The notes under the pieces: generated by a model | Told to the model about the DNA's origin: nothing | Seen by the model: only the letters and a program-made list of their open reading frames with translations | Databases searched by the model: none | Position numbers and translations under genes: made by a program | Assembly: GCA_031278095.1 (NCBI GenBank) | Contig: JAITLC010000112.1 | Location: 62,001-126,000, forward strand | DNA length: 64,000 nt | Origin: Treponema sp. | Lineage (GTDB): Bacteria; Spirochaetota; Spirochaetia; Treponematales; Breznakiellaceae | Direction of reading: 5' to 3' | Shown: one piece after another, positions 23,186 to 62,151 of the stretch | How the letters are laid out: every line of letters starts with the position of its first letter | Position numbering within the stretch: the first letter of the stretch is position 1

Positions 23186-24251
23186 CGTTAACACCCAGGG
23201 AGGCGGCGCAGTCGCAGAGGGTTTTCCACACCTGGTCTGTAAGCGCAACGCCATTTCGGTTGCTTGCCTCTTCGGTTTCCTGTTCCTTCTGTCCGGCATA
23301 GTATACCCGTTCCGCTCCCTCTGCGGGAGAAAGTGAGCTGAGGGCTTCCAGCATAAGGCTCATGTCCTTCTTGAAGTCCGCAGGCGGACGGAAAAGATCG
23401 ATTCTGAGCGCCATGAAAAAATGGCAGACCCTGGCGGATGTAAGTTCCGAATCTCTTACGTTTTCACCGAAGCTGCCGCCTGAACAGAGCGCAGTAAGGA
23501 TGTCTACCATTACCGCCAGTCCGTAACCCTTGTATCCGCCTGACTGTTCTCCCTCCCCTCCGAGGGGAAGAAGGCCGCCTCCTCGCTGGTAGAGCATGTC
23601 TTCCAGGAGCCCTGCGGGATCGCAGGTAACCCTTCCGTCGGTTCCCACGGCCCAGCCCGGGGGGAGGGGCTTCTTTTCGCGTTCGCAGACTTCCACCTTG
23701 CCCCTGGTAACGGTGGTAGTAGCCATGTCAAGGCTGAACATCTTGGCATTGAGGGAGGGCGCTGCAAAGGCAATGGGATTGGTGCCGAACATGGCTTTCC
23801 GCGCAAAGGTAGGAACTCCCAGGGCGGCGGTATTGGTCATGGCGATGCCGATCATGTCCTTCCGTGCGGCCATCTCCGCATAGTATCCGGCAATACCGAA
23901 GTGATTTGAGTTACGGATGCTGCAGGCGCCGAAACCGTGTTCCTCCGCCATGGAGATAACCTTTTCCATTGAACGTTTGCTGAGCGAAAGCCCCATACCG
24001 CCTTCCGCATCAAGAACAAGGGAAACCGGCGTCCGGTGAAGTGTCCGGGGACTTACTCCTCCCGTGATATACCCGGCCCTGATGCCTTCAACATACCGTT
24101 TGATTCGTGCAACGCCGTGACTGCGGATTCCTCTGGCATCGGCGGCTACAAGGATCTCCGCCGAAGAGCGGGCCTCATCCTCCGGTATGCCCAGAGCGGT
24201 AAATATGCCGCCGCAAATTTTTTCCAGATCCCGCCTCTTAACGAATACCAT
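23166..24251 (-). CDS. Malate/L-lactate dehydrogenase family (Ldh2) oxidoreductase
   Basis: A 361-residue NAD(P)-dependent 2-hydroxyacid dehydrogenase of the Ldh2/YbiC/YlbC family, distinct from Rossmann malate dehydrogenases. It has DARGIRSHGVARIKRYVEGI (catalytic His), NSNHFGIAGYYAEMAA, GTNPIAFAAPS, and DMATTTVTRGKVEV with GGYKGYGLAVMVDILTAL. Family substrates include malate, ureidoglycolate and diketogulonate; which applies here is unknown. Its ATG lies inside the end of hisD (14-bp overlap), with GGAGG in the hisD coding region, so it is translated as the last cistron of the his operon. Confidence 0.87.
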   Translation of the reverse strand: MVFVKRRDLEKICGGIFTALGIPEDEARSSAEILVAADARGIRSHGVARIKRYVEGIRAGYITGGVSPRTLHRTPVSLVLDAEGGMGLSLSKRSMEKVISMAEEHGFGACSIRNSNHFGIAGYYAEMAARKDMIGIAMTNTAALGVPTFARKAMFGTNPIAFAAPSLNAKMFSLDMATTTVTRGKVEVCEREKKPLPPGWAVGTDGRVTCDPAGLLEDMLYQRGGGLLPLGGEGEQSGGYKGYGLAVMVDILTALCSGGSFGENVRDSELTSARVCHFFMALRIDLFRPPADFKKDMSLMLEALSSLSPAEGAERVYYAGQKEQETEEASNRNGVALTDQVWKTLCDCAASLGVNATQYPA

Positions 24252-25602
24252 TTGCCTCCCCCCGTGATAGTGCGCTTAAAAACGCGTCGCATCTAAGCGC
24301 AGCGCTTTGGGCATGGGCTTCAAGTCCTTCCGCCTGCGCTATGGTTTCCGCGGATTTTCTGGCAAGCTCAAAGGCCTTGCCCCTTTCACAGCGGAGACTG
24401 GTGAGTATCTTGAGAAAATGTCTCACGGAAAGGCCTCCGGTAAAGCGGGCGCTTCCCGATGTGGGGAGCGTATGGTTGACGCCCGCCGAATAATCGCCGA
24501 GCACCTCCGCAGAAAGGCTGCCTATAAAGAGCGAACCGTAGTTTACCAGTGATGGTATCCATTGATCCGGATCTTCAAGCTGAAGTTCCAGATGTTCGGG
24601 GGCAATGGTATTGGCAATGCGGATCGCCTCTTCCCGGTCTCTGTACAGTACCATGAGGCCCCCGGCATCCAGAGACCCCGGAGCCGGATTTACGGTGGAG
24701 AGAAACGAAAGCTGTTTTTCGATGGCCGCAGAGATACTGTCCGCCATTTCCCGGTCAGGCACGAGAACTCTGGCCCTGGCGTCTACATCGTGTTCCGCCT
24801 GTGCAAGCATGTCCGCGGCAATGGTTTCCGCGCTTCCTGTTTTTTTGTCTGCGATTATAAGTACATCGGTGGGGCCTGCAACAAAGTCTATGCCCACTTC
24901 CCCGTAGAGCTGCCGTTTGGCGGCCGCCACATATCTGTTTCCCGGCCCCGCAATAATATCACAGCGGGGAACGCTTTCCGTTCCAAGCGCAAGCGCGGCG
25001 ATTGCCTGGGCGCCGCCCATGGCGAAAAAGCGGAGTATGGCGTTACTGTTACACACCCTGCGGGCGATCCATGCGGCGCCCAGGATGCGGCGATCGGGAA
25101 TGCCGTCCTCCAGGGGCGGAGAAACAAGCAGCAGTTCTCCGGTTCCGGCAGTCATGGCGGGAACAAGGCCCATGAGTACCGTTGAAATGAGGGGGAAACG
25201 GCCGGCAGGTACATAGATTGCCGCCCTGGACAGGGGAACTATGCGCTGGCCTGTAACAAGGCCCTCCCCCATGGAGTACTCAAAATCCTTAAACTGCCTT
25301 CGCTGTTCTTCGGAGAAACGCCGGATGTGTTCCGCTGCCAGAGTCAGGGCGGCGCAGAGATCGGCTTGGTCACGGGAGAGTTTCCGCCATGCCTCTTCGG
25401 CAGCTTCTCCGGGCACTTCGATACCAAGAGGAGAACTTCTGTCAAATTTTTTCCCATAACGGATAAGGGCCTCGTCTCCTTCGGCCCGTACCGCCGCGAT
25501 AATTTCCCTTACGGTCTCTTCCGTCTCTTCGTTTTCCCGCCCCCCCCGTGAGGCATGAAGCTTCCACCAGGAATCAAATGTATCGCCTGTAATTATCTCC
25601 AT
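24238..25602 (-). CDS. hisD: Histidinol dehydrogenase
   Basis: A 454-residue zinc enzyme that makes the last two NAD-linked oxidations from histidinol to histidine. Motifs: YVPAGRFPLISTVLMGLVPAMTAG, IAGPGNRYVAAAKRQLYGEVGIDFVAGPTD, LAQAEHDVDARA, EHLELQ, and the region GDYSAGVNHTLPTSGSARF (catalytic His). AGGAG lies 5 nt before the ATG. hisC ends 12 bp upstream. Confidence 0.95.
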   Translation of the reverse strand: MEIITGDTFDSWWKLHASRGGRENEETEETVREIIAAVRAEGDEALIRYGKKFDRSSPLGIEVPGEAAEEAWRKLSRDQADLCAALTLAAEHIRRFSEEQRRQFKDFEYSMGEGLVTGQRIVPLSRAAIYVPAGRFPLISTVLMGLVPAMTAGTGELLLVSPPLEDGIPDRRILGAAWIARRVCNSNAILRFFAMGGAQAIAALALGTESVPRCDIIAGPGNRYVAAAKRQLYGEVGIDFVAGPTDVLIIADKKTGSAETIAADMLAQAEHDVDARARVLVPDREMADSISAAIEKQLSFLSTVNPAPGSLDAGGLMVLYRDREEAIRIANTIAPEHLELQLEDPDQWIPSLVNYGSLFIGSLSAEVLGDYSAGVNHTLPTSGSARFTGGLSVRHFLKILTSLRCERGKAFELARKSAETIAQAEGLEAHAQSAALRCDAFLSALSRGEANGIR

Positions 25603-25614
25603 ACGGTCTCCTGT

Positions 25615-26739
25615 CTAATTTACTATCTCCCTGCATGAGGAAATAAACACGTCCATTTCCTCATCCGTACCAATGCTGATACGCAAAAAATCGCGTATCC
25701 TGTCCCTGTCCCAGTGACGCACCAGAATTCCCTTTTCCCTAAGCCTATTAAAGATCTCTTTTCCTGTAAGCCGCGGATGCCGGGCAAAGATAAAATTGGC
25801 GCTGGAAGGCAGCGCCTCAAAACCAAGGCTTTTTAGGGAAACGGAAACCCTGTCGCGTGTCCTGACAAGCCTGCGGTTAATCGCTTCGTAATATGAAGCG
25901 TCCAAAACCGCCGCCTTTCCCGCGGCCTGGGCAAGGCGATCCACGGTGTATGAGTTAAAGGAATCCCGTATCCTGCAGAGGGCTTCTACAAGTTCCCCGT
26001 TGCCAATAGCAAAGCCGAGCCTGAGTCCTGCAAGAGACGCGGACTTTGAGAGGGTATGAACGGTAAGCAGATTCGACCGGCCGGCGATATAAGACACCAG
26101 TGACTCCGCCCCGTTTTCGGTCCCCAATGCGCGGCCAAAGGCGGTGTAGGCTTCATCCACTATCAGTACCCTGTTCCGTTCTTTAAGGTATTCTGCAAGG
26201 CGCAGAATTTCCGTCCGGGGAACGGCGATTCCCGTCGGCGCATTGGGATTGGGAAAAACGACTCCCCCGGAGGGAATGAGATAGTCCTCTATGCGTATTT
26301 CAAAGTTTTCGTTCAGGGGGATAGTTTTATACTGTATATTCCAGAGATCCGCATAAACCGGATAGAAACTGTATGTAATATCGGGCAAGAGAAGGGGAGA
26401 ACCCTCATTGGATTCAAAAAAAGCGGCAAAACTGAAGGCAAGCACCTCGTCGGAACCGTTGCCGCAAAAAACCTCTTCCGGCCTTACACCGTAACGCGCC
26501 GCAATTGCCTCCCGCAGTTCCGTACAGGCAGGATCGGGGTAGAGGCGGAGCGCTGCGCCTGCGGCGGCTTGTGCATGCAGCAGTGTTTCTACCGCTCCGG
26601 AAACCCCGGGTGAAGGCGGGTAGGGATTCTCGTTGGTGTTAAGCTTGATAAGCCTCTCTCTCCCGGGCTGCTCCCCGGGAACATAGGGCTTCAAGTCCCT
26701 GACACGGCGGTTCCAGTATCTGCCCCCTGCGCTTTTCAC
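25615..26739 (-). CDS. hisC: Histidinol-phosphate aminotransferase
   Basis: A 374-residue fold-type I PLP aminotransferase. LNTNENPYPPSP at the N-terminus, FCGNGSDEVLAFSFAAF, PNPNAPTGIAV, VDEAYTAF, and the PLP lysine in LSKSASLAGLRLGFAI. The start is GTG at 26739 with AGGA 8 nt upstream, overlapping the end of the preceding message. It converts imidazole acetol-phosphate to histidinol-phosphate. Confidence 0.94.
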   Translation of the reverse strand: MKSAGGRYWNRRVRDLKPYVPGEQPGRERLIKLNTNENPYPPSPGVSGAVETLLHAQAAAGAALRLYPDPACTELREAIAARYGVRPEEVFCGNGSDEVLAFSFAAFFESNEGSPLLLPDITYSFYPVYADLWNIQYKTIPLNENFEIRIEDYLIPSGGVVFPNPNAPTGIAVPRTEILRLAEYLKERNRVLIVDEAYTAFGRALGTENGAESLVSYIAGRSNLLTVHTLSKSASLAGLRLGFAIGNGELVEALCRIRDSFNSYTVDRLAQAAGKAAVLDASYYEAINRRLVRTRDRVSVSLKSLGFEALPSSANFIFARHPRLTGKEIFNRLREKGILVRHWDRDRIRDFLRISIGTDEEMDVFISSCREIVN

Positions 26740-26749
26740 GCTTTAATCC

Positions 26750-28015
26750 TCATCTTTCTTTGTGTCTTCTGTCCAGTTCATTCAACACTTCTTCTATACC
26801 GACTCCGGCCTTTGTCATAAGAACCGTGGAAAAATACAGCAGATCCGCCGCTTCCCATACAATCTCATCGTGAGTCTTTGCGGTACAGATTTCCCCTGCT
26901 TCCTCTTCAATCTTTTCCCGAACCAGTTCATCATCCAGGGCGGCGGTATAGGAACCGGGCCTGGGATTGCGTAAACGTTCCGCAATTATTTCCTGGAGAT
27001 ACCGCCATGTATAGGAACGTTCCTGTTCAAAGCATGACCAGGAACCGGTATGGCAGACCGGACCTGCAGGCTCTGCAACAACCAGCACAGCATCCCTGTC
27101 GCAGTCGGCTCTGATCTTTTTAAGGCGCAGGACATTCCCGGAAGTTTCGCCCTTCATCCAAAGCATGTTGCGGGTTCTGGAGTGAAAGCACACATTACCG
27201 CGGTTGAAAGTTTCCGCTACCGCTTCCCTGTCCGTAAAGCCTGTCATGAGCACCTGTCCGTCGGGGGAGCTGACAATCAGCGGCAGTATTTCCGCCTTTT
27301 TCCAGTTAAGGGAAACGACAAAGGCGTCCGCAAGACTTATTTTTCCGGTATAGAGGGCCATTCCAAGCTGTACATCGCAGCCTATTCCGGCGCTGTTTTC
27401 AATCTCCTTGAGGCTTGAAACGCCTCCCGCCGCGGTAAGACGGCAGAACACGGCCTTCCGCAGATTCTTTACCGTTTCAAAGTTTATCCCCGTCATGGTT
27501 CCTTCCCTGTCAACACAGGTAAAGAGGAGTTCCGACACCAGGGGGCAGAGTTCCTGAGCAGTCCGCAGGAGATCCAGCCCGGTATGGGTTTTCCATCCGT
27601 CAACAACAATTTCTTCTTCCCTGGCATCCACGGCGACAATGATCCGCTCCCGCCCGATTGACTTTGCCAGTTCGGAAAGAAATATCCTGTTTACGCCGAA
27701 ACCGCCTTCCGGATTTTTCAGTGCCTTTGAGCCGATGATAATTTTTTTTGCACCCAGGCTCACCAGTTCCTTCGCCTGTGCGGCAGTTTTTATGCCGCCG
27801 CCCACTCTGCATTCCGCCTTTCGGAGCAGAGGTTTTATCATACCCAGGTTTGAAGCCTTCCCCATGGCGGCATCAAGGTCTATGACGGCAACTTCACCGT
27901 AGCGGTTAAAATCTTCCGCCAGTTCTCCGGCATTGTCCCGCTGGAGCACAAGCTCCTCACCGTGTTTAAGCTGGACAACCTTACCGCCCTGTATATCGAT
28001 TGACGCAATTACCAT
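26750..28015 (-). CDS. hisAIE: Trifunctional HisA-HisI-HisE fusion
   Basis: A 421-residue fusion of three histidine enzymes. Residues 1-235 are HisA (ProFAR isomerase, beta/alpha barrel): IASIDIQGGKVVQL, VGGGIKTAAQAKELVSLGAKKIIIGSKAL, VAVDAREEEIVV, TAAGGVSSL. Residues 236-340 are HisI (PRA-CH): VLMTGFTDREAV, RTRNMLWMKGETSGN, IRADCDRDAVLV, CHTGSWSCF. Residues 341-421 are HisE (PRA-PH): EEAGEICTAKTHDEIVWEAADLLYF. HisI-HisE fusions are common; the N-terminal HisA is unusual. The ATG overlaps the end of hisF by 7 bp. Confidence 0.93.
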   Translation of the reverse strand: MVIASIDIQGGKVVQLKHGEELVLQRDNAGELAEDFNRYGEVAVIDLDAAMGKASNLGMIKPLLRKAECRVGGGIKTAAQAKELVSLGAKKIIIGSKALKNPEGGFGVNRIFLSELAKSIGRERIIVAVDAREEEIVVDGWKTHTGLDLLRTAQELCPLVSELLFTCVDREGTMTGINFETVKNLRKAVFCRLTAAGGVSSLKEIENSAGIGCDVQLGMALYTGKISLADAFVVSLNWKKAEILPLIVSSPDGQVLMTGFTDREAVAETFNRGNVCFHSRTRNMLWMKGETSGNVLRLKKIRADCDRDAVLVVAEPAGPVCHTGSWSCFEQERSYTWRYLQEIIAERLRNPRPGSYTAALDDELVREKIEEEAGEICTAKTHDEIVWEAADLLYFSTVLMTKAGVGIEEVLNELDRRHKER

Positions 28016-28803
28016 CTGACACAGACCCCCTTTGATTCGGCGTGCTTCTTTATCTCCACGACAGTAGTCTTTTCAAAATGCAACAGAGACGCTACCAGAG
28101 CCGCATCGGCGCCCGCACCGCCGCCGTCATCCCCTGTATGCAGCAGTACATGCGCAATCTGATCGAGATTCCCGGCTCCTCCACTGGCAATAACCGGAAC
28201 CGGAACAGCTTCAAGAATGTTCCTGGTAAGCTCAAGATCGTAACCCTCACCGGTACCGTCGGCATCAATGCTATTGAGAAGGATTTCACCGGCTCCCCGT
28301 TCCACAGCTTCTACGGCCCACGCCACAGCATCCCTGCCTGTATCGATTCTGCCGCCGTGGGAAAAGGCATGCCAGAAAACACGGCCTTCGGCGTCCCTTC
28401 CTGCCCGTTTGGCATCCATGGAAAGCACCACACACTGGTTCCCGTAGGCCCTGGCCATTTCGTCCAGCAATTCAGGACGGGCAAGGACCGAGGTACAGAC
28501 AGAAACCTTGTCGGCCCCGGCATTCATCGCCTCCCGCATATCCTCCGCGGAACGTATGCCGCCCCCCACGCAGAGGGGAATAAAAACTTCGGCGGCTACC
28601 TGCCTTACCACATCAAGAAGCGTAGCCCGGCTTTTATGGGAAGCCCCGATATCAAGAAAGGTAAGTTCGTCGGCGCCTTCTTCGTTGTAGCGCCGGGCCA
28701 GCTCCACCGGGTTTCCCGCGTCCTGTATCCCCTTGAATTTGACTCCTTTAACAACCCTGCCCTCGTCCACATCAAGACAGGGAATGATGCGTTTAGCCTG
28801 CAT
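28009..28803 (-). CDS. hisF: Imidazole glycerol phosphate synthase cyclase subunit
   Basis: A 264-residue beta/alpha-barrel cyclase using ammonia delivered by HisH. AKRIIPCLDVDEGRVVKGVKF holds the first catalytic Asp, FLDIGAS, VGGGIRSAEDM, the second catalytic Asp in VVLSMDAKRAG, and LLNSIDADGTGEGYD. I start at 28803 because GGAGG lies 6 nt upstream and the protein then begins at the family's usual point. It overlaps hisH by 11 bp. Confidence 0.95.
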   Translation of the reverse strand: MQAKRIIPCLDVDEGRVVKGVKFKGIQDAGNPVELARRYNEEGADELTFLDIGASHKSRATLLDVVRQVAAEVFIPLCVGGGIRSAEDMREAMNAGADKVSVCTSVLARPELLDEMARAYGNQCVVLSMDAKRAGRDAEGRVFWHAFSHGGRIDTGRDAVAWAVEAVERGAGEILLNSIDADGTGEGYDLELTRNILEAVPVPVIASGGAGNLDQIAHVLLHTGDDGGGAGADAALVASLLHFEKTTVVEIKKHAESKGVCVRW

Positions 28804-29440
28804 CCCGCGCCTCCGCCCAGTTTGCAAGAAGCCTTAAGCCCGCGACCCCGGATTTTTCAGGATGAAACTGAACCGCGGCGAGCGCGCCCCTTTCCAGTGC
28901 GGAACAGTAGCGGAGATAGTATTCCGTTTCTCCGCTTACGACTACCCTGTCTTCAGGATCGGCATAGAAAGAATGGATGTAGTAAAAAAAACTGTTACTT
29001 TTAAGGCCCCTGAAGAGCTTTGAAGAAGGAAGGGCGGCAGTTTCGTTCCAGCCGATCTGGGGTACCTTGCGGCCGGGAAAACGCCGTACCCTGCCCTTCA
29101 CAATACTAAGGCCGCGGATTTCCCTGCCCTCCGCCGGAGGAGCCTCTTCGGAAGAATCGAGGAGAAGCTGAAGCCCGATACAGATCCCCAGAAAGGGCCT
29201 GTCCGCGTAAATCCATGAACGGATCGCCTCCGCATAACCTGAGCTTTCCAACGACAGCATCGCTGTTGCAAAGTGTCCGTCTCCCGGAAAGATTATGCGT
29301 TCAAAGCCGCCGCCCGGGCCTGGTAAAAGTTCTTCCGGGCCTCTTACAAAACGGGCTTCCAGGGAAAGCCGTTTCAGCGCGTTCATTACCGAACCCAGGT
29401 TTCCCGCGCCGTAATCGATCACCCCGATAAGGTTCCTCAT
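28793..29440 (-). CDS. hisH: Imidazole glycerol phosphate synthase glutaminase subunit
   Basis: A 215-residue class I glutamine amidotransferase that supplies ammonia to HisF. GVIDYGAGNLGSVMNALKRL at the N-terminus, nucleophile Cys in FLGICIGLQLLLDSSEE, and the His-Glu pair in AVQFHPEKSG. It starts within the hisB stop (ATGA overlap), with GGGAG 7 nt upstream inside hisB. Confidence 0.95.
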   Translation of the reverse strand: MRNLIGVIDYGAGNLGSVMNALKRLSLEARFVRGPEELLPGPGGGFERIIFPGDGHFATAMLSLESSGYAEAIRSWIYADRPFLGICIGLQLLLDSSEEAPPAEGREIRGLSIVKGRVRRFPGRKVPQIGWNETAALPSSKLFRGLKSNSFFYYIHSFYADPEDRVVVSGETEYYLRYCSALERGALAAVQFHPEKSGVAGLRLLANWAEARDAG

Positions 29441-30183
29441 GCAATCACTCCCTTTGTAGAAGGGATGTTCCCGGCGGCCCGTGCGTCAATCTCACAGGCT
29501 TCCCGCAGAGCCCTGCCTGCGGCCTTGAAGAGGGCTTCTATTTTATGGTGATCGCTTCTGCCGCGCAGTATATCGAGGTGCAGCGTTACTGCGGATGCAA
29601 GTACAAAACCCTGCCAGAAATCTTCCACCGTGTCGGTCTGGAATGAGGATTGTTCTGCCCGGGAATCACCGCACAACTGGCGGTATGCGAAGCGTGTTTT
29701 GGGAGTAAATTCAGCGCGGCGCCGGCGCCAACAAAGCCTGCCGAACCGAAAACGCCGGGCCGGCACGCCGGGGCTTACAGAGACCAGGGGAATGCCGGAA
29801 AGCCCCGCGTTAAAGACAAGACAGGCCCTCCCGGAAATATCAACCGCGGCGCGCGCCAGGGTTTCGTCCATGGGGAAAAGACAGGAGCCGTTTCTCCGTA
29901 TCCCGCGCCTGTCTCCCAGGGCCTTGTTAAAACATTGACCTAAAACGATTCCCGTATCCTCCACAAGGTGATGTTGATCTACCCAGAGATCCCCCGCGGC
30001 CTCTATCTCAAGATCAAAAAGACCGTGCCGTGCAAAAGTATTCAGCATGTGGGACATGAATCCTAAAGGATACTCAAGATCCGCTTCCCCTGTTCCGTCA
30101 AGATTCAGCTTTACCATAATGTCGGTTTCCTTTGTAGTCCGCCTGATTTCAGCGTTTCTGTAGAAACCGGTTTCTGTTCTCAT
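29437..30183 (-). CDS. hisB: Imidazoleglycerol-phosphate dehydratase with an in-frame insertion
   Basis: A 248-residue dehydratase without the N-terminal phosphatase domain of the E. coli protein. GFMSHMLNTFARHGLFDL, DQHHLVEDTGIVLGQ and DHHKIEALFKAAGRALREA give the two His-rich metal sites. Family members are about 195-200 residues; the excess is an Arg-rich stretch at about residues 133-178 between FNAGLSG and the TDTVEDFW helix. That loop is surface-exposed in known structures, so the enzyme may still work. AGGAG lies 6 nt before the ATG at 30183. Confidence 0.92.
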   Translation of the reverse strand: MRTETGFYRNAEIRRTTKETDIMVKLNLDGTGEADLEYPLGFMSHMLNTFARHGLFDLEIEAAGDLWVDQHHLVEDTGIVLGQCFNKALGDRRGIRRNGSCLFPMDETLARAAVDISGRACLVFNAGLSGIPLVSVSPGVPARRFRFGRLCWRRRRAEFTPKTRFAYRQLCGDSRAEQSSFQTDTVEDFWQGFVLASAVTLHLDILRGRSDHHKIEALFKAAGRALREACEIDARAAGNIPSTKGVIA

Positions 30184-30208
30184 GTCAAACTCCTGAGCCT
30201 GTTCCAAT

Positions 30209-31075
30209 TTACGGCACTACCTTCCGCAGATCGTACTCAACAATATCCGTGGCGCCCAGCCGTTTGAGCCCGGGAATAATACCGGGAACCTCGTCCTTCT
30301 TGACCGCAATCTTCACCGCATATCCGTCATTACCGGAAAGGGTAGAAACCGTGGGACTCCGCATGGCGGGAAGACCGTTCACCAGTTCCCCGAATTTATT
30401 TTCGGATACATTCATTTCCAGCATCACCCTTTCACGGCCGTCCAGAACCGCACGGAAGAGCATTGCCAGTTCCTCAATGAGGCTCCGTTTCTCCGGATTT
30501 TGCATTGCCGCCCTGGAAGCCACAAAACGAGTCGAAGACTCCAACAGCGTTGCTACGATTCTTAATCCGTTGTCCTTCAGGGTCTGACCGGAAGAAGTAT
30601 TATCGATAATCATGTCGGCGTCATCAGGCGGAAAAACTTCCGTTGCTCCATAGGTTCTAAGAATGCGGTATTCGTAGCCTGAACCTTTAAGCCATTCCTC
30701 CGCAAGCCTCACATATTCTGTGGCGGCCACCAGTTTTTTTGAACGCAGCGTCTCTTCACCGGTGGAGACGGGAACCGCGGCAACGATTCTAACCCTGTCA
30801 AAACCCAGATCGAGAATTTCCTCTACATCGGCGCCGCTTTCCCTGATCCAGTCAATGCCGGTAAAGCCCGCGTCGTGGCTCCCCAGTTCCAGAAGCTCGC
30901 CGACATTCTGAGGCTTCATAATCTTGGCATCCAGCCGGTCCGCCGGCGTTCCCGCCCCAATCACCGGCCTGTAGGTTCGATCGGCCAGGGAGATGGGGAA
31001 TCCCGCATCGTCAAAGAGCCGGGCTACCTTGTCGAAGATCCTTCCCTTGGGGATCAGGATCCGTAATTTTTCCAT
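30209..31075 (-). CDS. hisG: ATP phosphoribosyltransferase, long form
   Basis: A 288-residue HisG of the long, self-regulated type with a C-terminal ACT-like domain, which catalyses the committed step of histidine synthesis. It has LRILIPKGRIFDKV, GSHDAGFTGIDWI, and the PRPP loop DDADMIIDNTSSGQTLKDNGLRI. The allosteric domain begins near EMNVSEN and includes RSPTVSTLSGNDGYAVK and LGATDIVEYDL. Length means no HisZ partner is needed. The ATG at 31075 has GGAG 5 nt upstream, placed directly after the T-run of the attenuator. Confidence 0.95.
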   Translation of the reverse strand: MEKLRILIPKGRIFDKVARLFDDAGFPISLADRTYRPVIGAGTPADRLDAKIMKPQNVGELLELGSHDAGFTGIDWIRESGADVEEILDLGFDRVRIVAAVPVSTGEETLRSKKLVAATEYVRLAEEWLKGSGYEYRILRTYGATEVFPPDDADMIIDNTSSGQTLKDNGLRIVATLLESSTRFVASRAAMQNPEKRSLIEELAMLFRAVLDGRERVMLEMNVSENKFGELVNGLPAMRSPTVSTLSGNDGYAVKIAVKKDEVPGIIPGLKRLGATDIVEYDLRKVVP

Positions 31076-31084
31076 AAAAACTCC

Positions 31085-31125
31085 AAAAAAAAACCGTGAA
31101 CTCCCGGTTCGCCGGAAGCCCACGG
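31085..31125 (-). terminator. his operon attenuator terminator
   Basis: On the minus strand CCGTGGGCTTCCGG (31125-31112), loop CGAA, and CCGGGAGTTCACGG (31107-31094) form a 14-bp stem with only G-U irregularities. A run of nine T follows (31093-31085). It lies between the leader peptide and hisG, where an attenuator belongs. A competing pairing is available: CACGG just upstream (31135-31131) can pair with CCGTG of the terminator's first arm. Confidence 0.88.
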
Positions 31126-31146
31126 TATACATTCCGTGTGTTACGC

Positions 31147-31209
31147 CTAAACGGCGCCTGTTTCCGGCAGGAATGGGTAAAAATGATGATGATGCCGAAT
31201 CCCTTTCAT
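31147..31209 (-). CDS. hisL: his operon leader peptide with four consecutive His codons
   Basis: A 20-codon frame starts at ATG 31209 and ends with TAG at 31147-31149. It reads MKGIR-HHHH-FYPF and ends PETGAV. The four CAT codons are at 31194-31183. The stop is 22 nt before the terminator stem. This is the arrangement of ribosome-mediated histidine attenuation: stalling at His codons when charged tRNA-His is short would favour the antiterminator. The ribosome-binding site is weak. Confidence 0.88.
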   Translation of the reverse strand: MKGIRHHHHFYPFLPETGAV

Positions 31210-31341
31210 GACTCGATCCAGCCATGTATCCAAAAAAAAGTCAAGTAAGGGGGGCCTCTTTCCATAGCTCCAAACATCCGGGAGCCTTCATTCACCGGCC
31301 CCCCTACGGGCGCACACGGTTACGCCCTACCCCCTGCAGCC

Positions 31342-32274
31342 TCACCGCTCAGACAACGCCACCATCAGGCCGGCGGCTCCGATATTGAAACCTTCCTGTT
31401 CTTCCCAGGCTGCCACCACCACCCTTCCGCTCAGAGTCTTTGCCGTATAGACAAAGCCGGCAGGGAGAGGCGGCAAACCGGGATCGGGGACGCTGTTTTC
31501 GGTTTCATGCGTAAAGGAATTCTGGAACTCGGCCCGAGATGAAGACTCCGCTTCGGCCTCAAGATCTTTTGATCGGTAAAACCGAATCAGGGGCTGGAGG
31601 GTGTGTTTCTTCACCGCCCTGAAGTACCAATAACCGTCATCCCCCCGGCTCATGGCGTCGATGTCCCAGCCTTCGGAAGGAGACAGGGCATCCAGCGCGG
31701 GAACAGCCAGAGGGATGGGACGGTGAGAATCAATATCCGGCGTCCATACACGCGGCCGGGGAGCAGGAACGGCATTCTCGGCAAAAAAATCATCCCGGTA
31801 GAGCAGCGCAGCGGGGCTTCCCTGATAGATAAAGGCCGCCGCTGCCGTGTAGGAGCCCCAGAACGCGGGATCCGCGCAGCGGTAGACGGCAAGGGCCTCC
31901 GCAGGTTCAGACAGAGGGCCCGCCGGCTGCGAAAGCTCCGGAGTCGGACTTAGCGCCGGAGAAACAACAATAAACCCTTCCCGGTTGATAACAATCGTCA
32001 GTTCCCTGCCGTGTTTCAGGATACTCAGGACATGGCGGGCCAGAGGCCAGGGCTTAAAAGGCGTCAGGGAAGCCTCTCCCGGTGAAGAAAGAACCGTAAG
32101 CCCTTCGGCGGAAAATTCAAACCAGAGAGGATACTTTCCGGCCTCGATAATATAATCGGGATGAAGGGTTTCCCGGTACAAGCCGTCCGGATCTTCGGGA
32201 GGCGGCTCACTGTTTTTCCCGCCTGAACAACCGAATAAGAGGACACAGAACACAAGCGCAAAGAGATGCGGCAT
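31342..32274 (-). CDS. Predicted lipoprotein, unknown function
   Basis: A 310-residue protein starting at ATG 32274 with a short lipoprotein signal (LFALVFCVLLFGC, then SGGKN). The mature part is strand-rich. It contains LYRETLHPDYIIEAGKYPLW and DAMSRGDDGYWYFRAVKK, which suggest a repeat or propeller-like domain, but I recognise no family. GATAAT is 6 nt before the ATG and no Shine-Dalgarno is seen, so the mRNA may be leaderless. A frame extends to 32364 but would hide the signal peptide. Confidence 0.7.
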   Translation of the reverse strand: MPHLFALVFCVLLFGCSGGKNSEPPPEDPDGLYRETLHPDYIIEAGKYPLWFEFSAEGLTVLSSPGEASLTPFKPWPLARHVLSILKHGRELTIVINREGFIVVSPALSPTPELSQPAGPLSEPAEALAVYRCADPAFWGSYTAAAAFIYQGSPAALLYRDDFFAENAVPAPRPRVWTPDIDSHRPIPLAVPALDALSPSEGWDIDAMSRGDDGYWYFRAVKKHTLQPLIRFYRSKDLEAEAESSSRAEFQNSFTHETENSVPDPGLPPLPAGFVYTAKTLSGRVVVAAWEEQEGFNIGAAGLMVALSER

Positions 32275-32357
32275 ACTTCTATTATCGGAAAAACGTGATG
32301 AAGATTCAGTAGGCCTGGTGAGAGAACCCGGTTGGTTTTCTGCTAACCCGCGTTGTC

Positions 32358-32386
32358 TTGACATACCGCAAAGATACCTATATAAT
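32358..32386 (+). promoter_or_regulatory. Perfect consensus promoter with no gene downstream
   Basis: TTGACA (32358-32363), exactly 17 nt, and TATAAT (32381-32386) on the + strand. It points into the transposase fragment in antisense, and beyond that antisense to hicBA. It may be a remnant of an insertion sequence or drive an untranslated RNA. Confidence 0.7.
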
Positions 32387-60036: not shown

Positions 60037-62151
60037 TTAATCAGAATAAATTGATTTTTTTATTCGCCTTAAAAGACTGATCTTCGCAATGGGAATCCTC
60101 AAGGATTCAGCCCTGCCGCCGGGATCCTCCGCCGGGGCCCGGACTGTGCCGGAAGTTTCGCCGTATGGTTCCCTTCCGAAACTCCCGCCGCTGTGGGGCT
60201 TAAGTACCAGCACACTGTCACTGCCGGATTTTTCAAGAGCCTCGGGAAAACCGAGGGTTTTACTGATCCCGAATTCCGGATGAGGCCAGGTTACTTCAAC
60301 CAGAGATCCCGAAACAATGGCCTGCTTCAGGATATTTGCCTTGCCTGCGTAGTCAAGACCACGAACCTCGTTTTTTTCCGGCCTGAAATGAGCCTCTGAA
60401 AGCTGCGATTCATTGATGATAAGCTTCCGTTCTATCCTCTTTAAGAGTTCTTCCCGCTGTTCCTCGGGAAGTTTCTTGCGCTCCAGGAAATACCGGTACT
60501 TTTCCTTTATCTTTTCTCCGTCCTGCGGGGGAACTGCCTGCGCGGTTTCGCCGCGGGACGCCTCTCCGGCATTCTGAATTCTGTTTCCCAGGGAAGGAAA
60601 AACCTCCAGCGGCGGATCCTGCTGTTCTGCCGTCTGAATTTCCGGTACCGCGACCAGATCTACCCCGGCCTTTGCCAGGGCTTCTGCCGCGGCCTCAATG
60701 CCCGCCCTTCCCGCAACGTCCTCCCGGAGAAGGTAGATACCCGGCGCCAGTGTCTTTGCCGCAAGGGATGACAGAGGCCCTGTTTCCGCAAGATATCGCC
60801 GCTCCTCGGAAAGCCTGAGCACCACTCCCTGATAGAGTGAAACCTCTGCGCTGCGGCGTTCCCAGTCCCTAAGATTCCAGATGAGACTTTCGTCCAGACG
60901 GTTCCCGGAAAGACGGCCCAGAAGTTCTATCATGGCGTCCGCTTCCACGCCCCGGTTAAAGCCCCGGAGTACAGATTCCCTGTCAAGCTTAAAACGGGAA
61001 ACCGGGCCGCCTTTGGCAATGCTGCAGAAGGAAGCCAGTTTCAGGGCATCTGCTATTGAGACTCCGGGGTAAAGCACGAATGAAAGAGGAGAATCAAAGA
61101 CGATACGCTCATCATGTTTTTCAGTACGATTCCTGCAAAACCGGAATCCTGATTCCTGCGAAGAGAACAATCCTACCGCAAGAAGGGAGCCAAAGATACT
61201 GTCGAAGCCGGGCAATTCCTTGCGGTTTTCCGCTTCCTTTTCGCATATAAACCACTTACGCTTCAATGTCTTGAGGGGGTAGATCCTTCCTTCCTCAAAC
61301 GTAGAAAGAAAACGATTCAAAAGCAGCGCCAGTGAACGTATTCTGCCGCGGTATAGATACTCAGGTTCAAAACTGCCGTCGGTCCTGAGGCTTTCCCCCA
61401 GGGAAGCTGCGGCGACGAAGTAGAGCTTCCGGTCCCTTTCTTCAAGGAGGGCAAATGCGGAAAGCCGCTTTTCATCGGGATAGAGATCCCCTCCGTCCCG
61501 GCGGAGGAGGCCCAGCAGAAAAGCTGTGGTATACAGGGATTCTACGGAAAGACCGGGAAAAATCCCGGAGAGCCTTTCAAAGACCAGCTTGCGGAATTCT
61601 CCTTCGGTTTTGAAAAAATGGGGATCTTCCCGTACATAGGCTATAAAACCTGCCAGGACTCCGGGAGCCGCAAGGAGGGGCGGATCTTCCCATACTGTTT
61701 CTGCGTCAGACTGCTCCTCGGGAAAAAGGATGTCATGATTTTCCACCCAGGGGCCGAGAAGTTTTTCCAGAACCGGATTCAGGGCCAGCCGGCTTATCCC
61801 TTCATCCCGAAAACGGTAGAGGATAAAACGCTCCTCCATATTGAGGATTAGATCCTGAAGCCGGGAAAAACTAAAGCCGCCATCAAAAAAGTTATCCAGA
61901 TCTTCGGGCCGGGGAAAGTCGAGGAGGCCCACTGCGGCAATAAGCAGGGCTTCTTCCTCACCGATGTAGGCGCCCATCGTTTCCTGAATGTCGGGCCGGG
62001 AAAGAAAAGCCGCCAGATCCTCTACCAGCCGCTGTTTGTTAAAAGGGGTTTCAATCTTTCCGAAAACCGAACGCATCAGCTCAAAGAAGGCTCCTTCATG
62101 AAGCGTAAGCAGGGCAGATTTCCAGTCTCCGATGGACTTGAAGGTACTCAT
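60037..62151 (-). CDS. XPB-partner protein with a helicase-associated domain
   Basis: A 704-residue protein without helicase motifs. It starts MSTFKSIGDWKSALLTLHEG and is largely helical. The mid to C-terminal part (about 330-530; FVLYPGVSIADALKLASFCS, VLRLSEERRYLAETGP) resembles the Helicase_C_3/XPB-Ssl2 N-terminal-type domain found in proteins encoded beside bacterial XPB, such as the neighbour of XPB in mycobacteria. The last 100 residues are a WYL/beta-like segment (LVEVTWPHPEFGISKTLGFP). Its start overlaps the xpb stop by 4 bp, so it is made together with XPB and probably regulates or docks it. Confidence 0.7.
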   Translation of the reverse strand: MSTFKSIGDWKSALLTLHEGAFFELMRSVFGKIETPFNKQRLVEDLAAFLSRPDIQETMGAYIGEEEALLIAAVGLLDFPRPEDLDNFFDGGFSFSRLQDLILNMEERFILYRFRDEGISRLALNPVLEKLLGPWVENHDILFPEEQSDAETVWEDPPLLAAPGVLAGFIAYVREDPHFFKTEGEFRKLVFERLSGIFPGLSVESLYTTAFLLGLLRRDGGDLYPDEKRLSAFALLEERDRKLYFVAAASLGESLRTDGSFEPEYLYRGRIRSLALLLNRFLSTFEEGRIYPLKTLKRKWFICEKEAENRKELPGFDSIFGSLLAVGLFSSQESGFRFCRNRTEKHDERIVFDSPLSFVLYPGVSIADALKLASFCSIAKGGPVSRFKLDRESVLRGFNRGVEADAMIELLGRLSGNRLDESLIWNLRDWERRSAEVSLYQGVVLRLSEERRYLAETGPLSSLAAKTLAPGIYLLREDVAGRAGIEAAAEALAKAGVDLVAVPEIQTAEQQDPPLEVFPSLGNRIQNAGEASRGETAQAVPPQDGEKIKEKYRYFLERKKLPEEQREELLKRIERKLIINESQLSEAHFRPEKNEVRGLDYAGKANILKQAIVSGSLVEVTWPHPEFGISKTLGFPEALEKSGSDSVLVLKPHSGGSFGREPYGETSGTVRAPAEDPGGRAESLRIPIAKISLLRRIKKSIYSD

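Follow-up and report, generated by a model that had tools for sequence, protein, structure and literature searches.

Known attenuators and the spirochaete locus

Ribosome-mediated attenuation of the histidine operon is classical in enterobacteria, and leader-peptide attenuation was for long known from Proteobacteria and Actinobacteria, to which a few cases in other groups were added later. The enterobacterial his attenuator (HisL, the His leader of Rfam) combines a leader ORF that carries a run of His codons with mutually exclusive terminator and antiterminator helices, all placed before hisG. The same arrangement was found in a termite-gut spirochaete, in a window of 64,000 nucleotides from Treponema sp. 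(positions 62,001 to 126,000 of contig JAITLC010000112.1). Coordinates below are those of the window unless another locus is named, and its features all lie on the minus strand. The spirochaete system differs from the enterobacterial one in the sequence of its leader and RNA, which has no Rfam match, in having four His codons, in the lack of a Shine-Dalgarno (SD) motif before the leader, and in the operon order hisGBHF-AIE-CD.

Three other systems resemble it in part. In bacilli, which like the spirochaete lie outside the Proteobacteria, His leader peptides are found before hisS/hisZ (PMC2965389, which names no spirochaete), and the target genes differ. The trpL attenuator of Sinorhizobium meliloti is leaderless, its RNA starting directly at the leader-peptide ATG (PMC7298713); it uses Trp codons and belongs to another phylum, and its RNA start is a reported one, whereas that of the spirochaete is one we infer. 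The ilvBNC attenuator of Corynebacterium glutamicum, with branched-chain regulatory codons and again from another phylum, has been discussed as a leaderless leader mRNA whose first hairpin is an anti-antiterminator that blocks initiation (PMC11857589), which resembles the role that a pairing between elements 1 and 2 would have in the spirochaete.

A full-text search of openly available papers found no report of his attenuation in spirochaetes, in agreement with the initial annotation of this DNA, which had called such leaders rarely reported there. The mechanism is of a known kind, the classical E. coli type, and the phylum is provisionally regarded as new for it.

The his operon and its leader

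The first gene of the operon is hisG (30209-31075; PF01634 and PF08029). The order is hisGBHF-(AIE)-CD with all genes contiguous, and the genes after hisG (24238-30207) were assigned by Pfam as hisB, hisH, hisF, a hisA-hisIE fusion, a hisC-like aminotransferase (class I/II, at the place of hisC) and hisD. A single 421-aa protein (26750-28015; PF00977, PF01502 and PF01503) joins HisA, HisI and HisE. On the other side of the leader, the product of the gene at 31342-32364 has 340 aa, an N-terminal stretch like that of a lipoprotein (FALVFCVLLFGCSGG) and no match in Pfam. Its C-terminal end (WEEQE.F.IGAAG) is found again immediately upstream of hisG in many relatives, which shows a conserved gene order.

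Between these genes lies the leader ORF. The 20-codon frame first proposed was confirmed from the sequence, with its ATG at 31209 and its TAG at 31149-31147 (whole ORF 31209-31147), and it encodes the 20-aa peptide MKGIRHHHHFYPFLPETGAV. Its codons are ATG AAA GGG ATT CGG CAT CAT CAT CAT TTT TAC CCA TTC CTG, followed by CCG GAA ACA GGC GCC GTT TAG. The four consecutive CAT codons for His stand at 31194-31183, as had been claimed, and are the candidate regulatory codons. Homologous leaders occur in relatives, where the His run is kept while its length and the flanking residues vary. Apart from the run, these leaders share little: a start of MKRI or MNRI and an end like PESGV, both of which coincide with RNA pairing elements. 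At the sequence level this is a predicted short leader ORF rich in the codon of the pathway's own amino acid, and a chance origin is excluded because His-rich leader frames are found at the same place in three families, against 0/28 hisG loci in the rest of the phylum.

The leader ORF is separated from hisG by an intrinsic terminator. Its hairpin (31126-31093) is ACCGTGGGCTTCCGG-CGAA-CCGGGAGTTCACGGT, with 9 G-C pairs; the CGAA-looped stem had been recognised before, and its length comes to 15 pairs with the outer A-U included, not the 14 first given. The tract of nine T was also correctly read (31093-31085), and straight after it come the GGAG ribosome-binding site of hisG (31084-31081) and the hisG ATG (31075-31073). 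The further idea that a ribosome-binding site at the terminator edge couples both controls did not hold up: the distance from the end of the terminator to hisG is about 55-110 nt in several relatives, and the terminator hairpin does not pair with the GGAG. The hisG frame is open upstream across the whole terminator region to an ATG at 31225 (31225-30209, 338 aa), which is likely fortuitous.

Competing helices in the leader RNA

The predicted fold of the 171-nt leader has an energy of -55.3 kcal/mol (z = -2.8). Detailed analyses took in 42 loci of the same family for geometry and duplex formation, 40 for promoter, SD motif and folding, and 25 relatives for a covariance model. The comparison of hisG upstream regions suggested by the initial annotation found the His run conserved and the terminator stem covarying. 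In the terminator, 96% of cells are standard pairs and 12 cells are changed on both sides, a score as high as which was reached by 0/500 shuffles. An unconstrained MAFFT alignment of the relatives gives the terminator consensus as CCGTGGACTC/GAGTCCACGG, and contains in addition element 2 (GAGTCCGG), a stop-codon hairpin and a CGG-TAATACAG-CCG hairpin.

The predicted main antiterminator is a long-range pairing between element 2 and the terminator 5' arm, a helix which the earlier reading had missed. Element 2 (TGCCGGAA, 31169-31162) lies within the leader codons, and its partner, element 3 (TTCCGGC, 31117-31111), is part of the terminator 5' arm. In the window the pairing is GCCGGAA (31168-31162), the leader codons for LPE, with TTCCGGC; in relatives it is GAGTCC or GAATCC opposite GGACTC or GGATTC. 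Helix 2:3 alone has 89-91% standard pairs, against 35-58% when slid, and the whole antiterminator structure drops to 33-53% when slid. G-C, A-U and G-U pairs are exchanged in helix 2:3 among relatives; its double-change score is reached by 8/1000 shuffles, and the number of double-changed cells in the whole antiterminator by 12/500. The covariation of helix 2:3 is moderate, since element 2 doubles as coding sequence and conservation of the core is strong. The duplex beats simple shuffles (p<0.05) in 18 of 42 loci only, partly because GC-rich shuffles pair well. Counting against the model, the 2:3 pairing is just 3-4 bp in some family members (e.g. L006, L046, L052 and L057).

The competing CACGG/CCGTG hairpin noted earlier upstream of the terminator does exist (CACGG at 31138-31134, CCGTG at 31125-31121; as a whole CACGG-AATGTATA-CCGTG, 31138-31121), and in 25 relatives it is nearly invariant, with 99% of cells paired. 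It occupies the outer half of the terminator 5' arm, nested inside helix 2:3. As the sole antiterminator it was rejected: despite its conservation it is short, and the remaining arm is taken up by the longer 2:3 helix.

Two further pairings may take part. Element 1 (TTCGGCA, 31199-31193), also overlooked at first, can pair in the minimum free energy fold with element 2 (TGCCGGAA) as a putative protector, or anti-antiterminator; its counterpart in relatives is the conserved CGGATT of codons 3-4 (MKRI). A small hairpin, GCGCC-GTTTA-GGCGT (31157-31143), has the leader stop codon in and beside its loop. The evidence for this hairpin, which comes from the fold, is weaker, with 62% of cells paired and 4/5 pairs having changes on both sides.

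Could the hairpin before hisG simply end transcription from the upstream genes, or be a constitutive attenuator, with the His codons a coincidence? An intrinsic terminator this strong would work alone, and an unrelated upstream gene does end at 31342. This explanation is nevertheless very unlikely, given that in about 80 genomes the terminator lies between hisG and a His-rich, usually promoter-abutted ORF, that His enrichment stays while run length, flanking codons and order vary, and that the alternative pairing is conserved. A sensor other than the translating ribosome, such as a T-box tRNA sensor, a riboswitch or an RNA-binding protein, with the ORF secondary, is the least probable of the readings weighed here. 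It would account for the conservation in primary sequence, beyond what pairing needs, of the terminator 5' arm CCGTGGAC and the GCGGTAATACAG motif. An Rfam search of the window and the leader (30950-31350, up to E = 10) gave no match, at gathering thresholds or at E<=10, and the Rfam His leader model was unmatched, so that neither a T-box (Stem I specifier and antiterminator with T-box sequence) nor a known riboswitch is recognised here. In relatives with a clear promoter the RNA would start at the ORF, which leaves an upstream aptamer no space, and even divergent leaders keep their His codons.

Ribosome position and the proposed mechanism

Element 2 begins 20-40 nt past the first His codon in most loci and ends near the leader stop codon. 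Sequestration of the terminator 5' arm was calculated by partition-function folding of the nascent RNA with a ribosome placed at chosen codons. The family median was 0.80 for a ribosome on the His codons and 0.36 for one on the stop codon, against 0.55 for shuffled sequences. The two ribosome positions differ by >0.2 in 33/40 loci, and observed sequestration is above the shuffled value in 37/40. The window itself gave 0.82, 0.52 and 0.61, and the independent version of the leader in two other families of the order (f4 and f5) gave 0.79, 0.38 and 0.57, using the same scheme with other sequences, e.g. GGAGCCGT against CCGGCTC. The antiterminator strand is thus predicted to be free at a His-codon stall and covered at the stop codon, with moderate covariation and clear geometry.

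In the proposed mechanism, transcription would start at the leader ATG or a few nt upstream of it, and a ribosome would begin on the leader ORF. When His-tRNA is scarce, it would stall on the four CAT codons and leave element 2, >20 nt downstream, free; element 2 and the terminator 5' arm would then pair, alongside the nested CACGG/CCGTG hairpin, and polymerase would read into hisG. When His-tRNA is plentiful, the ribosome would reach the stop codon and cover element 2, and the terminator would form. If the leader is untranslated, element 1 may pair with element 2 and favour termination. This last branch is uncertain: folded with no ribosome, the arm is still largely sequestered, with a median of 0.68 and a value of 0.81 in the window, and helix 1:2 is therefore not predicted to be dominant in every species.

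The element is very probably a ribosome-mediated transcription attenuator of the his operon. The initial annotation had proposed control by charged tRNA-His, and this is well supported by the conserved His run, terminator, alternative pairing and geometry. Stalling, termination, a histidine response and, for the Treponema of the window, the precise start point are what we infer from this comparison.

Start of the leader transcript

Upstream of the leader is a -35-like TTGACT (31244-31239), at a distance from the ATG that is the same in four congeners and nearly all relatives. A putative weak -10, CTGGAT preceded by TGG (31221-31216), ends 6 nt before the leader ATG. Members of the window's genus keep the -35 intact and have CTGGAT, a poor sequence, where relatives have a -10 of TAnnnT; a consensus promoter scan of the window's leader region found no promoter. 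In relatives, TTGAC, 17-19 nt, TAnnnT, 5-7 nt and then the leader ATG follow one another in 31/40 loci, with a discriminator of 6 nt in 17 loci and 7 nt in 14. The chance of a promoter abutting an ATG in this way is 0.00035 per locus, and it was seen at just 2/444 other ATGs in the same regions. An SD-like motif precedes the leader ATG in 0/40 loci and hisG in 39/40.

The usual distance from a -10 to the transcription start is 6-7 nt. With the spacing found, the transcript of relatives would therefore begin at the ATG, and since no SD motif accompanies the abutting promoter, the leader mRNA is probably leaderless and translated without a ribosome-binding site. For the window itself, with CTGGAT as its -10 and a negative scan, a start at the ATG is suggested by position and by the relatives.

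A different start would affect this part of the model only. The promoter could lie elsewhere and give the leader a 5' UTR, as the weak CTGGAT might suggest, or translation could begin at ATG 31225, from which an ORF in frame with hisG stays open to 30209. We consider these options rather unlikely. Four congeners keep the block from TTGACT to the ATG even where the sequence upstream differs (L004), no SD precedes 31209, hisG begins at the conserved MEKLRIL, and the relatives carry TTGAC-N17-19-TAnnnT-N6/7-ATG. A leaderless start at 31209 is the more probable reading. Across relatives, then, comparison of sequences establishes the leader, its His run, both competing helices, their geometry and the promoter-ATG spacing.

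Distribution in the order

Unclassified Treponema genome bins that share the leader have a hisG 92-94% identical to the window's; for many other members of the family, including Breznakiella homolactica, a named complete genome which carries the attenuator (L059), the identity is about 75-82%. About 43 of 97 unique upstream regions in the family (Breznakiella and termite-gut Treponema) have a His-rich short ORF followed by a GC-rich hairpin and a T tract. Many members have no leader before hisG, which was counted against the model; in these remaining regions hisG mostly lies directly behind another gene, or there is no terminator. Elsewhere in the order, every testable genome of families f4 (24 genomes) and f5 (14 genomes) has such a leader (e.g. 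MSNARYVQFCHLHHHGHAYAVAMIVIP). It is absent from 28/28 hisG loci from the rest of the phylum, including one from family f3, which we take to be Treponemataceae, and from the further f3 loci examined. In f4 and f5 loci (L118-L128), the leader is often followed by two tandem terminator-like hairpins before hisG.

The covariance model built from 25 relatives matches 64/200 family genomes at E<=0.01, mostly directly upstream of hisG, and matches the window's own genome once. Of the matches away from the listed hisG genes, four were read. L159 (382-448) lies before a hisB-led operon in genome G144, where hisG is on another contig, and L161 lies before a second hisG copy. In L160 the attenuator is about 2 kb upstream of hisG in genome G021, with a group II intron between them; the intron's maturase (RVT_1 and GIIM) is encoded at 844-2274 on the plus strand of that locus. 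Some group II introns insert behind terminator hairpins. The match in L162 lies inside a long ORF and is thus probably due to chance. A quick, non-exhaustive pattern scan of six family genomes found no convincing similar leader before leuA, ilvB or trpE.

These data could reflect an order-wide Spirochaetota family of leaderless his attenuators that was already present in the common ancestor of three families and disappeared from Treponemataceae. In such attenuators the mRNA's 5' end would serve as start codon, ribosome-loading site and anti-antiterminator strand, and initiation by an undissociated ribosome would be part of the switch. We hold this wider proposal tentatively, at a little short of an even chance.

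Implications

With a complete device and conserved alternative helices in three spirochaete families, the known range of attenuation becomes wider, and the spirochaete his attenuator is an RNA family ready for annotation. Its probable leaderless design, suggested by more than 30 genomes, would make the spirochaetes suitable for testing how leaderless initiation works in regulation.
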